From a virus: DNA of 26,210 nt. Of the stretch, positions 2,432 through 21,153 are shown in pieces. The notes beneath the pieces were generated by a model, which worked only from the letters and a program-made list of their open reading frames with translations, ran no database searches and had not been told where the DNA came from. The position numbers and the translations under genes were made by a program. The stretch is taken from positions 1 through 26,210 of IMG/VR virus record IMGVR_UViG_3300037068_000045; one strand, given 5' to 3'. The stretch's first letter is position 1, and the number at the start of each line of letters is the position of its first letter.

Positions 2432-2809
2432 ATGAACTTCGAACAAGCTGTACAAGAAATGATTCATGGAAATCGAGTGCGATTATCTGATTGGATTGGA
2501 TATTGGTTTATGCCAGATGGTAAATTCATTAAAGTATTTACAAGGGATGGTGATATATTAGACGAGGCCAATGTTACAAGATATCAAAATCGCGATGATT
2601 GGGAGATTGTTACCGAAACTGGTTGGTCGTTTGATATGGCATTAAGGTTCATGAAGAATGGGAAAGAGATTACTCGTAGTGGATTCCCAGAACATGCAAG
2701 CATGTGTATCCTAGGAGAGAAAATATATGTTAGCATCCACTTGGCCGGTAGTATAAATACTATATTAAATGATATTTTAGCAAATGACTGGCAGATTGTA
2801 AACTCATAA
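2432..2809 (+). CDS. Tandem Tad2-like (DUF2829) protein, putative anti-Thoeris sponge
   Basis: This 125-residue protein consists of two diverged copies of a Tad2/DUF2829-type domain. Copy 1 (about 2-60) runs from NFEQAVQEMIHGNRVRLSDW to DDWEIV. Copy 2 (about 66-123) runs from SFDMALRFMKNGKEITRSGF to NDWQIV. Each has the family frame: (S/N)F-x2-A, a helix with a G-(K/N)-x-(V/I) turn, T/V-R, an aromatic, and a closing DW-x-IV. In phage SPO1 and relatives, Tad2 is a single-domain protein of about 90 residues that binds the Thoeris signal 1''-3' gcADPR and blocks defence. That activity is inference here. In copy 2 the usual Trp after the R is Phe (F85). An Acb2/Tad1-like gene lies 350 bp downstream. 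Confidence 0.72.
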   Translation: MNFEQAVQEMIHGNRVRLSDWIGYWFMPDGKFIKVFTRDGDILDEANVTRYQNRDDWEIVTETGWSFDMALRFMKNGKEITRSGFPEHASMCILGEKIYVSIHLAGSINTILNDILANDWQIVNS

Positions 2810-2820
2810 AATAAACTATC

Positions 2821-3078
2821 ATGGAAATTAACGAACAACTCGAAAACGTGAAATCACATTTGAAGAAAGGCGGTACTTACTTCGATTCGCTTGTATTGCG
2901 TGATTCTGAAATCATCTTTAATGAGATTATCCGTAGTGGTGTACATGTTGATTCCTTACAGGCTAGGCAGATTGCAGATTCTGCCGCCAAGCAGTTCTTA
3001 AATGAATGGATTGGTAGTGAACCAGAACCTGCGGAAGATTTGAGTAAAGTAAATCTTAGCAAAGGATCGAAAAAATGA
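2821..3078 (+). CDS. Small hypothetical alpha-helical protein
   Basis: This 85-residue protein is unrecognised. It is predicted mainly helical (LENVKSHLKKGG, SEIIFNEIIRSG, ARQIADSAAKQFLNEWIG), with an acidic then basic tail. There are no cysteines and no membrane segment. It lies between the Tad2-like gene (11-base gap) and a 26-residue membrane peptide whose ATG overlaps its TGA. Its place between two likely anti-immune genes makes a counter-defence role possible, but that is only guilt by association. Confidence 0.6.
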   Translation: MEINEQLENVKSHLKKGGTYFDSLVLRDSEIIFNEIIRSGVHVDSLQARQIADSAAKQFLNEWIGSEPEPAEDLSKVNLSKGSKK

Positions 3079-3155
3079 TTGTAAAGTTTATTTCATCATT
3101 CGTCTGTATAATATTACTGGCGTATGTAATTAAAAAAGGAGCAAAAATTAAGTAA
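3075..3155 (+). CDS. 26-residue single-pass membrane microprotein
   Basis: The ATG at 3075 overlaps the upstream TGA (ATGA). The peptide is MIVKFISSFVCIILLAYVIK followed by KGAKIK and TAA. It is one hydrophobic helix (about residues 3-19) with a strongly basic C-terminus, so the positive-inside rule predicts a cytoplasmic C-end. A tightly coupled start and a gap of only 1 base to the next gene argue that it is translated. Its function is unknown. Confidence 0.45.
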   Translation: MIVKFISSFVCIILLAYVIKKGAKIK

Positions 3156-3156
3156 T

Positions 3157-3363
3157 ATGTCCGAAAAAACAATCGGCGAACAAAGGGTTCGCATTGAATT
3201 TAATCCTTCCAACGAGGATTTAGTATTCCAGATCAAACAAAAAGCCGCAGAGCTGATTAATATCTGCGAAGGATTAAAGGCGAAAGATGGAAGATTGGCT
3301 TCTTTAGCACAAACGGGATTTGAGGATGCGGCAATGTGGGCTGTTAAAGCTGCCACTGCGTAA
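3157..3363 (+). CDS. Acb2/Tad1-like protein, putative cyclic-nucleotide sponge
   Basis: This 68-residue protein matches the small Acb2/Tad1 helical-hairpin family. It has N-terminal RIEFNPSNEDLVFQIKQKAAELI and the C-terminal signature R46-x3-LAQT-x4-AAMWAVKAAT (46-67). Acb2 (for example T4 Vs.4) forms a hexamer that sequesters CBASS cyclic di- and trinucleotides, and the related Tad1 binds gcADPR from Thoeris. The whole chain is the minimal core length, with no extra domain. It is in the same operon as the tandem Tad2-like gene, so this segment looks like an anti-signalling cassette. Family membership rests on the C-terminal motif seen by eye; ligand choice cannot be told from sequence. Confidence 0.72.
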   Translation: MSEKTIGEQRVRIEFNPSNEDLVFQIKQKAAELINICEGLKAKDGRLASLAQTGFEDAAMWAVKAATA

Positions 3364-3386: not shown

Positions 3387-3485
3387 GAGGACGTGGCAGA
3401 GTGGTTAATGCGCGCCAAGGGAAGATATTTATATCTGGAAGTGTTGAGCATAAGATGGTCATCGGTTCGAATCCGGTCGTCCTCA
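3387..3485 (+). tRNA. tRNA-like gene with enlarged anticodon region, possibly Ser(GGA)
   Basis: A perfect 7-bp acceptor stem is present (GAGGACG 3387-3393 with CGTCCTC 3478-3484), with A73 at 3485. U8 is present. The D-arm is GCA/TGC with a GG-containing loop, and the T-arm is ATCGG-TTCGAAT-CCGGT (3461-3477). The stretch between D- and T-arms is 48 nt instead of about 22. The best reading is a class II tRNA-Ser. Loop CTGGAAG (3435-3441, anticodon GGA) would sit between CGCCA (3413-3417) and TGTTG (3442-3446) with 4 of 5 pairs, followed by a short variable arm CAT-AAG-ATG. This leaves 17 unexplained nt (3418-3434). The gene is cotranscribed inside the accessory operon. Confidence 0.6.
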
Positions 3486-4540: not shown

Positions 4541-5474
4541 TAAGCCGTGGACGTTTAAAGATGATGATATATTATCAGAAAGGAGAATAAATCAGCTTTC
4601 TATAGCTAAATTAAAGGAAGAATACTTTAAGTTAGGCGAAGTAATGAAGACTAGCCGGGATTATTCTACTTATCTGAGCTATCGAATACGCGGATATCAG
4701 GCCCGGTTGAAAAGACGGAAGCGTAGGCGTATTGCTATGCTCCGTCGTCGGGTTTTAAAGGCTTCTTACATCAGAAAGCGGGTCCGTCAGCAACACCGGA
4801 TAGAGATACGCAAGTCACGGGCGCTGATTAAGAAGAACGCGAAGATTGCCATACGTAAAATTGTAAAGATCCGGCTTGAAAGGGCTAAGAAGGTGATACC
4901 GCGCAGGCTAAATAAGTACCGGAAACACGTTCGAGTAGTGAAAGCCCGACAATTAAAGCGGTCCAGACGCACTATTCAGCGAAGATTAACCAGAAGAAAG
5001 ATCCTACTCATAAACAAAGCTAAGTTACTGGCCAAAGAGAATGCATTTATTGGACTGATTAAAAAGGAGAAACTCCCAGGTATCGGGAGATACATTGGAA
5101 TATATGGATTGATCATAAAAAGGATCGCCCCTAAACTGGGAATGAAGTTTGAGGATTGTTGTTTTTTTCTATGGTTCGGGAATTTTGAATCTTTCAATAC
5201 TGGCACGTTAGGTCTGATGTATCCTGGATTACCATATAATTATATTCAAAAAAGCATAATACATTTCAAACGAATACAGTATATTCAACATGTAAGTACG
5301 TTCCGTTGGAGGAAAACCTATTCAGTTACGCCGCTTGGCAAAGAGGTTTATAATAGAATCGTTCGTTATATGAAACGATTTAAGAAGCCATATAGTGGTA
5401 AGCGTATTACGAAGAAGATGGTAAGAACGCACTTCCAATTAAAGCCCAAGCCAAACTATTATGCAAAGTCATAG
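4524..5474 (+). CDS. Highly basic protein with C-terminal winged-helix-like domain, next to TerL
   Basis: This 316-residue protein uses a GTG start inside the preceding gene. Residues about 50-165 are dominated by Arg and Lys, with runs such as RLKRRKRRR and RRR every few residues, like a histone H1- or protamine-like tail predicted as a long helix. Residues about 200-290 look like a winged helix: helices around EDCCFFLWFG and YNYIQKSIIHFKRI, a wing with RWRKTYSVT, then PLGKEVYNRIVRYMKRF. The end overlaps TerL by 14 bases. I infer a DNA-binding protein of packaging or genome condensation, possibly the small terminase. A virion-packed DNA-condensing protein is an alternative. Confidence 0.7.
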   Translation: MKKVVDKPWTFKDDDILSERRINQLSIAKLKEEYFKLGEVMKTSRDYSTYLSYRIRGYQARLKRRKRRRIAMLRRRVLKASYIRKRVRQQHRIEIRKSRALIKKNAKIAIRKIVKIRLERAKKVIPRRLNKYRKHVRVVKARQLKRSRRTIQRRLTRRKILLINKAKLLAKENAFIGLIKKEKLPGIGRYIGIYGLIIKRIAPKLGMKFEDCCFFLWFGNFESFNTGTLGLMYPGLPYNYIQKSIIHFKRIQYIQHVSTFRWRKTYSVTPLGKEVYNRIVRYMKRFKKPYSGKRITKKMVRTHFQLKPKPNYYAKS

Positions 5475-7491
5475 CATATACGGAATCGATTATACACCAC
5501 CTGCCTATCCTGAAAGACACACGATAAAAGGGCATAAATTGCTATTCGGCGATCAGAAGTGGATACGGGAACCTATACCGGAATCATTTGAGAATGTTGA
5601 GTTTGATCTGGATGGTAATGCTATACTCGATGCTGAACAGGAAGCCTATGTAATTAATGAGCTAGAGAGGATTAAAGACGGGTACTATTTCTTCAACCGG
5701 GGGGAACTCACCTATTTAACCGGTGTCCACTATTTTTACCTGCAGTACTATACTCTTGAAGATGGAACTAAACCAGAGTTTCGTGATGCCGATCGTAAAT
5801 GGTTCTACTTCCTTGAATACTGCCTAAGCAAGCCATATATTACTGGTATTATCCGGATAAAGAAACGTCGTGAAGGTGCTTCTTCCCAGGCAGCATGCTT
5901 TGCTCTCTGGACAGCGCTGACTACTCCACAATCTAACTGCGGTATCGTATCAAAGACTGGAGCCGATGCTAAGTTACTATTCTCGGATATGATCGTGAAG
6001 GCCTTTAATGGCCTTCCAGCCTTCCTTAAGCCACGTGTAGAAGAATCTGAATCTAAGACCAGTCTTTCATTTAAAAAGCCCAAAGAGCGCAAGATGCGTG
6101 CGCGTGAGAAGGGACAGATATATAATAAGGATCGCGGGCTAGAATCTAAAATAGATTACAAGAATACCGCTCTTAATAGCTATGACTCAGGCCGCGTTAC
6201 GGTTATTATCATCGATGAGGCTGGTAAATGGAGCGTGGAAGTTCCAATTAACCAGTACTGGCCTATCGTAAAGAAAACACTGACCCAAGGGATTAAGCGC
6301 GTGGGATTTGCTATTATGGTATCTACCGTGAACGATGCTGAATCGGGTGGCCGCGCTTATAAACAGGTATGGGATGATTCAAATCAATTTGCAGATAAGA
6401 TTACGGGTACTGGATTATATCGCTATTTCTCCCCGGCATACGAGGGACTGGCTGGATTCATAGATGACCATGGGTTCTCTATTACGGAGAATGCTTCTGC
6501 AGCTATGCGGAAGATGTACCTTGATACATATGGAGAAGAATATAGTGGATCAAAAGACTACCTGCTAAAGATCAGGGCTAAGATAAAGGATCCAACTGCG
6601 CTATCTGAGGAAATAAGAATGAATCCGTTCGATGAACGAGAAGCCTTCATGATCTCCCAGGCCAAGTGCCACTTCTCTGTAGAGAAGATTACAAATCAGA
6701 TTGAGGCTATCAATAATGCACCCAAACCATTACGCCGGGGCAAGTTCTTCAAGAAGGATGACGGTACTTGCGACTTCATGGACATGAAGGACGGACCATG
6801 GCTAATCCTAAAATTCCCAGAAGTAGAAGAGCAGAATAAGCGCCAGATGACAGATAAAGGATGGGCGCCTGCTAATACAGGGAAGTATTGTAATGGTATC
6901 GATCCGCACCGGCACTCATTCACCAAAGGTAATAAAGATCTATCGCATACGGCAGCCTGGATCGGTGAACGTTATGATTCTAATGATCCGGGCAATACTG
7001 GAATGCCAATAGCCTTCTACTTTGATCGCCCTAAGGAAAAGAAAAATATGTATGATCAGATGCTATTTGCTGGCATCTTCTTTGGCGTGCGCGTGCATTT
7101 CGAAACTGATGCCGGTGATGATTATTATCAGTATTATAAGGCAGAAGGATATACGGCTTATATTCGCTGGACACCTACCTGCGCTCGTGATCCATTAAAG
7201 CCCGGGCGCCCAGTACCAGGTACATCTTCTAAAGACCCGTTTGCATTATCGAAGCAACTCGAACTTGGGATAGCCTTTATTGAGCATCATTGTCATAAAA
7301 TTTGGTTTATTGAATTACTGGAAGAGCTATTGCTATATGATCACGATGAACGGCAGATATTCGATAAAACGGTAGCGTTCCTGATCATGTTGATTGATAT
7401 GCTGGGTGATACGAAGGCTATGCGGACTACGGAAGAGAAACGAGAGAAACCACTCATTGCTACTTACAATCTTTTAAATCGAAATAACTAA
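5461..7491 (+). CDS. terL: Terminase large subunit (TerL)
   Basis: This 676-residue packaging motor is of the length usual for crAss-like TerL. The ATPase domain has a Walker A-like KKRREGASS (134-142), Walker B VTVIIIDEA (246-254, D252/E253) and coupling motif STVND (288-292). The nuclease domain has an acidic centre at GIDPHRH (D481), a second acidic cluster FETDAGDD (547-554), and a third in IFDKTVAFLIMLID (D635 onward). These three positions fit the RNase H-like terminase nuclease that coordinates metal ions. TerL docks on the portal, pumps DNA with ATP and cuts it. The gene is coupled to the basic protein upstream and converges on the minus-strand operon with an 11-base gap. Confidence 0.93.
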   Translation: MQSHSIYGIDYTPPAYPERHTIKGHKLLFGDQKWIREPIPESFENVEFDLDGNAILDAEQEAYVINELERIKDGYYFFNRGELTYLTGVHYFYLQYYTLEDGTKPEFRDADRKWFYFLEYCLSKPYITGIIRIKKRREGASSQAACFALWTALTTPQSNCGIVSKTGADAKLLFSDMIVKAFNGLPAFLKPRVEESESKTSLSFKKPKERKMRAREKGQIYNKDRGLESKIDYKNTALNSYDSGRVTVIIIDEAGKWSVEVPINQYWPIVKKTLTQGIKRVGFAIMVSTVNDAESGGRAYKQVWDDSNQFADKITGTGLYRYFSPAYEGLAGFIDDHGFSITENASAAMRKMYLDTYGEEYSGSKDYLLKIRAKIKDPTALSEEIRMNPFDEREAFMISQAKCHFSVEKITNQIEAINNAPKPLRRGKFFKKDDGTCDFMDMKDGPWLILKFPEVEEQNKRQMTDKGWAPANTGKYCNGIDPHRHSFTKGNKDLSHTAAWIGERYDSNDPGNTGMPIAFYFDRPKEKKNMYDQMLFAGIFFGVRVHFETDAGDDYYQYYKAEGYTAYIRWTPTCARDPLKPGRPVPGTSSKDPFALSKQLELGIAFIEHHCHKIWFIELLEELLLYDHDERQIFDKTVAFLIMLIDMLGDTKAMRTTEEKREKPLIATYNLLNRNN

Positions 7492-12993: not shown

Positions 12994-13095
12994 TGGAAAA
13001 GGACAGAATCGAACTGTCAACCTATTCATAAATGCAGTGCATCTATTCTCTTTCCCCTGTGATTTGGGTTGCTCCACCTATTGAGCTACTTCCCC
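12994..13095 (-). tRNA. Second tRNA-like gene with enlarged anticodon region
   Basis: Read on the minus strand, the acceptor GGGGAAG (13095-13089) pairs with CTTTTCC (13001-12995) through five Watson-Crick and two G-T pairs, with discriminator A. U8 is present. The D-arm is GCTC/GAGC with a GG-containing loop, and the T-arm is GACAG-TTCGATT-CTGTC (13018-13002). Between D- and T-arms are 51 nt instead of about 22. The best anticodon candidate is the loop TTATGAA (13031-13025, anticodon ATG). It would lie between ACCCA and TAGGT with 4 of 5 pairs but would leave only one nucleotide for the variable loop, so the identity is unresolved. No CCA is encoded. The minus-strand promoter at 13276-13296 lies 180 bp upstream. 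Confidence 0.5.
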
Positions 13096-19911: not shown

Positions 19912-21153
19912 TTATACGAATACTGGCTTCGAAAGTAATTGTGATTTAATCGTACGGATGGCTTCTATGCAATTATTCTTATTTGTGATACATATCTCTT
20001 GAATACTCGACATGGGCAATAAGATGTTTTCACAATCACAATCAATTGAAATATCCTGTCTATAAAATATTGAAAGGAACTGTTCAATCTGCTGTACTTT
20101 AGGAAAATCAATTTCAATGATCATATCAGTCCTACCGGCGCGTAATAATGCAGGATCAAGTTTATCTAAGTGATTAGTTGTAATACAGGTAATTAGTCCT
20201 TCTTTGTAAAAAGCTCCATCAGTGCAGTTTAATAAACATGAAAAGCTAATCTTACATTCACTCTCCCGTTTTGTAAAGGATGCGTCCATATCCTCTATAA
20301 CTAATACTACGTCATTCCCTATGTTATTAAATGCCTGTTGCAATGCGGCATCCCCTTCCAATGAAGAAGGATTCAACACGTAAATATCACGCTGTGTATA
20401 TACGGCAATTGCCAAACAAATACTCGTTTTGCCATTCCCAGGGCCACCATGGAATGCATATGTTCTTTTATAGGGGATAGATGTTTCAAGATACCATTCC
20501 TTTGATGACTTGAATTGATCAATATCATTCATCAGCATAGCCTTTAAAGCTGGATCAATGATAATCTTATCCAATCCTTTAACGGTTAGGGAATTTGCCC
20601 GATCCCAATTGCCGTATTTATCATTGGTTCTTATCTGGATCTGATTCTTAGGGAACTTATCATAGTGTTCATTCACGATGCCTTGCAACATTTCGGTAAT
20701 TGCTTCTTTACCTCTGAATCCTTTTATAACATAAATATACCCATATAGTGATTTGAAACTTTGGGCGTATTCCAGTTTCTCGCGTTCTTTGGTTATGAAC
20801 AGCCGTTTACCATTGATATTTAAAATGAATACGTTGGTTGATTGGCTGTAATAAATCTGTGGAGTTTTCTTAATTCCTGCTTGCGGTTCTGAGTTTGGAG
20901 AAAATAACTTGCCCTCTACATCCTTATATTCTTTCTGATGATTATTTTGCAACCATACTTCGAGCAGTTCGAACAGATCGTCATATTCATATATCCGAAC
21001 GCTATATACAAGTTTGGCTGATATCTTTTTACTAACAATCTTCCATGCTTGTCCTGGAAGCGCCTTTAATGAGTAGATCAATCCACCACCGATAGTCATT
21101 ATTAGTCCAGTACCTAAGATGGGGTTATTCAGAATATCTTGAATGTTAATCAT
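19912..21153 (-). CDS. BCS1-like AAA+ ATPase with N-terminal membrane segment
   Basis: This 413-residue protein has a hydrophobic N-terminal segment (about 12-32, ILGTGLIMTIGGGLIYSLKAL). A BCS1_N-like region follows (about 50-185, including SVRIYEYDDLFELLEVWLQNN and an internal beta part). The AAA+ domain has Walker A GGPGNGKT (236-243), Walker B VVLVIEDMD (282-290, E287 D288), sensor I TTN (325-327) and LDPALLRAGRTD with the arginine finger R341. 'TTNHLDKLDPALLRAGR' is close to the BCS1 signature. Mitochondrial BCS1 translocates a folded Rieske protein; bacterial and phage relatives are poorly understood. It overlaps the GroES-like gene by 4 bases. A role in assembly, DNA handling or host takeover is open. 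Confidence 0.82.
   Translation of the reverse strand: MINIQDILNNPILGTGLIMTIGGGLIYSLKALPGQAWKIVSKKISAKLVYSVRIYEYDDLFELLEVWLQNNHQKEYKDVEGKLFSPNSEPQAGIKKTPQIYYSQSTNVFILNINGKRLFITKEREKLEYAQSFKSLYGYIYVIKGFRGKEAITEMLQGIVNEHYDKFPKNQIQIRTNDKYGNWDRANSLTVKGLDKIIIDPALKAMLMNDIDQFKSSKEWYLETSIPYKRTYAFHGGPGNGKTSICLAIAVYTQRDIYVLNPSSLEGDAALQQAFNNIGNDVVLVIEDMDASFTKRESECKISFSCLLNCTDGAFYKEGLITCITTNHLDKLDPALLRAGRTDMIIEIDFPKVQQIEQFLSIFYRQDISIDCDCENILLPMSSIQEICITNKNNCIEAIRTIKSQLLSKPVFV

Follow-up and report, generated by a model that had tools for sequence, protein, structure and literature searches.

On balance, four small genes in the genome of an IMG/VR virus appear to make up a phage counter-immunity cassette, in which a conserved Acb2-type sponge is encoded in one operon with a fast-changing Tad2-like partner. 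The window, meaning the whole stretch of DNA that was analysed, is the virus record IMGVR_UViG_3300037068_000045, of 26,210 nt (~26.2 kb). The outer two genes of the cassette belong to families that recur as neighbours in unrelated phages, and the core of the Tad2-like C-terminal domain has been replaced in the window.

Genomic setting of the cassette

The four genes share one strand with gaps of at most 14 bp, and the stop codon of the 85-aa gene overlaps the start codon of the gene for the 26-aa peptide (ATGA). An earlier sequence-only reading of this DNA had proposed Tad2-like and Acb2/Tad1-like genes in one operon, about 350 bp apart, with an 85-residue protein and a 26-residue membrane peptide between them. 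This layout is borne out, as both outer genes exceed the curated Pfam cut-offs (25 bits for PF11195 and 27 bits for PF24729), 347 bp lie between them and the intervening open reading frames are as proposed, the peptide being strongly hydrophobic (Kyte-Doolittle maximum over 17 residues; Table 1).

The same reading saw in the region a dedicated island against signal-based immunity, and here only the linkage of the two families, which goes beyond chance (see below), has stood. The four genes are a cassette within a longer dense operon and not an isolated island. The run of genes on this strand continues to the terminase gene (5461-7491) and includes, upstream, genes for an HU-like protein and a weakly RepL-like protein, and among the neighbouring open reading frames scanned against Pfam, PHROGs and NCBIfam no further recognisable anti-defence gene was found. 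Matches to DinI, EpmC and DUF4248 in the Pfam scan were weak, lay under the cut-offs and were discarded. The tRNA that follows acb2 is not called by ARAGORN and is missing from the one close relative that was found for the window. A second tRNA, at 12994-13095 on the minus strand, scores 41.2 bits with Rfam and is likewise not called by ARAGORN. An AAA ATPase with a weak BCS1 N-terminal match is encoded at 19912-21153, on the opposite strand and amid structural genes.

The host is likely to belong to the Bacteroidota, because the terminase TerL is ~30% identical to the enzymes of Flavobacterium, Cellulophaga and Maribacter phages; a search with the capsid protein as a further clue to the host gave no match. 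A nucleotide search of GenBank phages returned no near relative of the window, and within IMG/VR a single close relative was found. This sister phage (3300047508_000090; loci L001 and L081) has a major capsid protein 99% identical to that of the window, and it serves as the main point of comparison below.

Table 1. Features of the cassette and its immediate surroundings, with positions in the window.
Feature	Position	Strand	Evidence
tad2-like gene, 125 aa, two Tad2-like domains in tandem	2432-2809	+	PF11195 (Tad2-like) 35 bits, E 2.1e-8, in two stretches (Pfam); AlphaFold; Foldseek
Short N-terminal Tad2-like domain, 'W.GYW' type	2432-2617	+	17.7 bits to PF11195; ~45 phage/prophage proteins
C-terminal Tad2 domain, replaced core	2678-2768	+	unalignable with sister phage; both conserved boxes absent
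85-aa gene, no assigned family	2821-3078	+	sole relative in sister phage, frameshifted
26-aa hydrophobic (membrane) peptide	3075-3155	+	hydropathy maximum 2.43; 92% identity in sister phage
acb2-like gene, 68 aa, Acb2/Tad1 hairpin	3157-3363	+	PF24729 (Acb2_Tad1_hairpin) 47.5 bits, E 2.1e-12 (Pfam); AlphaFold; BFVD
tRNA directly 3' of acb2	3387-3485	+	Rfam RF00005 42.5 bits

The Acb2-type protein

The 68-aa protein is a member of the Acb2/Tad1-hairpin family. Its 35 relatives in the family termed A1, which are 53-97% identical to the window copy, all match PF24729 at E≤0.01, and 21 positions are invariant among them, including R10, F15, N16, K27, R46, T53, E56-K64 and T67. When a profile was searched against the PDB the top match was the T4 protein Vs.4 (Acb2), with E=0.012, and a purpose-built HMM also recovered T4 vs.4 from the open reading frames of the fetched phage loci, T4 included. 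A PDB search from a single Acb2 sequence gave chance matches only; the profile and BFVD searches did better.

Structure prediction, which the sequence-only reading had put forward as a check, agrees with the assignment. The AlphaFold model (pLDDT 94.8) has one short helix followed by two long ones (residues 6-10, 21-42 and 45-67) and no beta-domain, which is the helix order described for Acb2 (PMC12043709). The two best matches among the BFVD viral models are both Acb2/Tad1-hairpin proteins (TM 0.89 and 0.86), and Foldseek against the PDB retrieved no Acb2 with this model. Identity with Tad1 is excluded by the all-helical structure.

In T4 Acb2 the residues Y8 and F82 are tied to the binding of cyclic dinucleotides (PMC12657218). 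Y8 sits in a Y-K-P motif ahead of helix 2, and the invariant F-N of the A1 family (mostly F-N-P) may take its place, a by-eye reading of residues that are left unpaired in the automatic alignment. F82, the residue stacked on the ligand in T4, is aligned with the invariant T67. The pocket therefore probably differs from that of T4.

The gene is under strong purifying selection in comparison with the sister phage (dN/dS = 0.019). The subfamily to which it belongs has 161 confirmed members in viral contigs, whilst a search of a collection of 85,000 genomes at the same sensitivity gave one match, on a contig of a Flavobacteriaceae MAG, so that at this search sensitivity hardly any members lie outside viral contigs. 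Its frequency there and its near absence from the genome collection suggest that the phages that carry it rarely lysogenise.

The Tad2-like protein

The 125-aa protein is best filed only as Tad2-like. If its halves are scanned apart against PF11195, the N-terminal half falls under the cut-off and the C-terminal half, at 25.9 bits, lies just over it. The predicted structure (pLDDT 84) also has the Tad2 fold, and the top 20 Foldseek matches in the PDB are all Tad2 structures with a probability of 0.77-1.0, the next match having 0.02, although the E-values are only 0.01-0.3. A W.GYW domain with a Tad2 domain behind it is also the layout of the phage and prophage proteins counted in Table 1, among them proteins of Dorea and Ruminococcus phages. 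In a Ruminococcus phage, the two-domain Tad2 protein is encoded between the holin and the endolysin. The N-terminal domain has a dN/dS of 0.034 against the sister phage.

The middle of the C-terminal domain cannot be aligned with that of the sister phage, whereas both of its flanks can. The core in the window consists of ~90 bp of unrelated sequence, against ~142 bp for the canonical core in the sister, yet the reading frame is intact across all 125 codons and the end motif DILANDW is kept. The change has the appearance of a swap by recombination that left the frame undisturbed. A W-N-G box is found in 140 of 149 other Tad2 domains and a W..S..D box in 141 of the 149, and neither is present in the window protein. 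The sister Tad2, by comparison, has a canonical C-terminal domain with both boxes; the whole protein scores 100.4 bits against PF11195 and its top solved match is the Myroides Tad2 (5e-16).

In the published description of Tad2 (PMC12043709), loops and strands from the region of the C-domain core form the pocket. As this is the part that has been replaced in the window, the ligand of the window protein has probably been changed or lost. The sequence-only reading had presented the protein as a Tad2-like sponge and had named Thoeris as the target of that fold. That proposal has lost ground, since both conserved boxes are absent while the sister keeps the canonical core, and binding of a Thoeris signal by the window protein is doubtful.

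The intervening genes and the YIGTK module

The products of the two genes between tad2 and acb2 have no convincing family match in Pfam or PHROGs, nor, for the 85-aa protein, in NCBIfam. The 85-aa gene has no relatives in phages and IMG/VR other than that of the sister phage, in which a 2-bp deletion, either real or an assembly error, leads to a frameshift and a stop. The 26-aa peptide is conserved and was found only in the sister. Both genes had been singled out in the sequence-only reading as candidates for new inhibitors, a suggestion that has weakened for the 85-aa gene.

A third intervening gene, which encodes a 76-aa product termed YIGTK (L081 6439-6669), is present in the sister and missing from the window. 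Of 80 IMG/VR loci, about half have the YIGTK module as the leading part of a fusion with Tad2. This fused form corresponds to PHROG 872, and the separate genes of the sister match its two halves. Neither Pfam nor NCBIfam has an entry for YIGTK, which would be a better candidate than the 85-aa gene for a new anti-immune domain.

Recurrence of Tad2-Acb2 pairs

Amongst 80 Acb2 records, Tad2 is found in six, and it is linked to acb2 in the sister phage, L045, L073 and L074. With the window counted in and the sister dropped, Tad2 lies within 500 bp of acb2 in four of six independent records, for which the probability by chance is ~4e-5. The reverse direction gives a similar picture, in that an Acb2-hairpin gene occurs within 3 kb in 18 of 80 canonical-Tad2 loci; 15 of these 18 genes are within ~200 bp of Tad2, and nearly all are its direct neighbours. 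Either gene may come first, and in many pairs the stop codon of one overlaps the start codon of the next. Of 19 partner proteins, 15 have a PF24729 match at E≤0.001. None of 126 YIGTK loci and two-domain Tad2 loci (sister excluded) is paired, a difference for which the Fisher value of 1e-8 is a guide only, as it ignores relatedness and compares different phages.

The pairs, that of the window included, fall into ~12 clusters that are unrelated at the DNA level. The Mycobacterium phage MalagasyRose (NC_073465; L310 707-1509) also has such a pair, as its genes 4 and 5 overlap, encode Tad2 and Acb2-hairpin proteins that score 82 and 79 bits, and lie immediately ahead of the terminase genes and beside tRNAs. 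The pairing is not due to chance and suggests that Tad2 and Acb2 may work as a pair; a shared role against immune signals is a fair inference because the pairing recurs in unrelated phages beyond chance.

Several other arrangements were seen around these genes. In L274 (2740-3461) Tad2 has an Acb2-like gene on either side, the two being different variants, and the junctions touch or overlap. Acb2-like genes lie near or beside terminase genes in unrelated phages (L316 2519-2743, L318 2498-2731 and the window gene). Curiosium gene 5 and Klebsiella KMI6 gene 51, both of which adjoin Tad2, gave no Acb2 match. In the Aeromonas phage Ahp1 (MT161459; L313 2468-4396) Tad2 adjoins a gene for nicotinamide phosphoribosyltransferase, and this could possibly be a combination of NAD repair and a sponge.

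Proposed mechanism and alternative explanations

Sponge function has been described for both families (PMC12043709, PMC12657218). In the proposed cassette the 68-aa protein most likely assembles via its helical hairpins, and the assembly would trap the cyclic di- and trinucleotides of CBASS-like systems so that the effectors stay off. The signals captured by Tad2-family partners would be those of the ADP-ribose type (Thoeris) or cyclic dinucleotides, and the two sponges together could cover two signalling classes at once. Co-expression would be favoured by the adjacent and often overlapping genes seen in other phages. In the window phage the Acb2 partner would be the strongly conserved component, and the exchange of the Tad2 core would have altered or abolished the ligand of the other. 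Counter to the cassette, two genes part tad2 from acb2 here, and genes for DNA binding and packaging share the operon. The threonine at the F82 position, the lack of an Acb2 match in the Foldseek search of the PDB and the two boxes missing from Tad2 also weigh against it. It is also possible, and is put forward tentatively, that Tad2 and Acb2 are the two halves of a real counter-immunity module, with Tad2 and YIGTK swapped rapidly to retune the signal that is bound. Unrelated, mostly lytic phages would then have kept the two together because both sponges have to be made jointly, for coverage of CBASS and Thoeris signals or as a mixed complex, and the window would show a Tad2 swap between close relatives.

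The replaced core and the two lost boxes could also mean that Acb2 is the sole active sponge, Tad2 being a decaying or repurposed remnant after the replacement of its pocket core and the 85-aa gene neutral filler. Such an explanation would fit the absence of YIGTK from one of the two phages, the broken 85-aa gene in one of them, the restriction of the tightest constraint to acb2 and the many Acb2 records in which there is no Tad2. It is nevertheless rather unlikely, as the Tad2 frame is intact, the N-terminal domain is under purifying selection, the C-terminal domain retains its end and the predicted structure is still that of a Tad2 fold.

The folds might, alternatively, be shared by proteins with a non-immune function in packaging or lysis, where they would be accessory or regulatory factors for the genes next to them. 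Acb2-like genes adjoin terminase genes in several phages, Tad2-like genes adjoin lysis genes in Ruminococcus and Bacillus phages, and the pair in L073 has the portal gene on one side and the next structural gene on the other. The genes are, however, missing from most relatives and occupy many different sites, as accessory genes do, and those members of the two families that have been characterised act as sponges (PMC12043709), which leaves a packaging or lysis role improbable. A role of the Tad2-like protein as an AcrIIA7-type anti-CRISPR, in place of a nucleotide sponge, is very improbable. In its favour, some PDB entries for Tad2-like proteins carry the names 'Inhibitor of Type II CRISPR-Cas system' and AcrIIA7, and the Tad2 fusion of phage Louie is annotated as an anti-CRISPR. 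Against it, the linkage with Acb2 points to signal-based immunity, and 8kbi, one of those structure entries, is HgmTad2, which is reported to bind nucleotide signals.

Significance

The individual sponge families and their kinds are already known. What is new is that Tad2 and Acb2 recur as a pair, that the window has a tandem Tad2 whose core has been swapped, and that there is a link to YIGTK. The literature surveyed, which excludes the main Tad2 and Acb2 papers, contains no description of Tad2 and Acb2 genes that recur as an overlapping pair. If the pair is real, it would provide a simple rule for the discovery of anti-immune genes, namely to search beside Tad2 and Acb2, and the YIGTK domain is nominated as a new anti-immune candidate. 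MalagasyRose grows on M. smegmatis, so that the idea of a functional pair can be tested in a laboratory host, and the comparison with the sister phage offers a natural experiment on how phages alter the specificity of their sponges.

Comparison with known systems

The operon of the sister phage holds both modules of the YIGTK-Tad2 fusions, but as separate genes in the reverse order, and the window has no YIGTK. The window Tad2-like protein shares PF11195 and the Tad2 fold with the Tad2 proteins of SPO1 and Myroides and with HgmTad2, and the sister copy has the canonical domain of these proteins. Unlike them, the window protein is a two-domain tandem in which the C-domain core has been replaced and both boxes are gone.

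The 68-aa protein resembles Acb2, as known from T4 Vs.4 and from the Pseudomonas phage Acb2, in being a small phage protein with the PF24729 hairpin, a short N-terminal helix followed by two long helices, and the signature A.T....A.MWA..A. It differs from T4 Acb2 in its length (68 aa against 88), in its N-terminal RVR..FNPS motif and in the invariant threonine that its family has at the position of F82. With Tad1 it has the C-terminal hairpin domain in common at the level of the Pfam family, but it lacks the N-terminal beta-sheet domain of that protein. As a pair, the window genes are like those of MalagasyRose (genes 4 and 5), L045, L073 and L074 in bringing both families together on one strand; in pairs elsewhere the genes touch or overlap, whereas two small genes intervene in the window and three in the sister phage.
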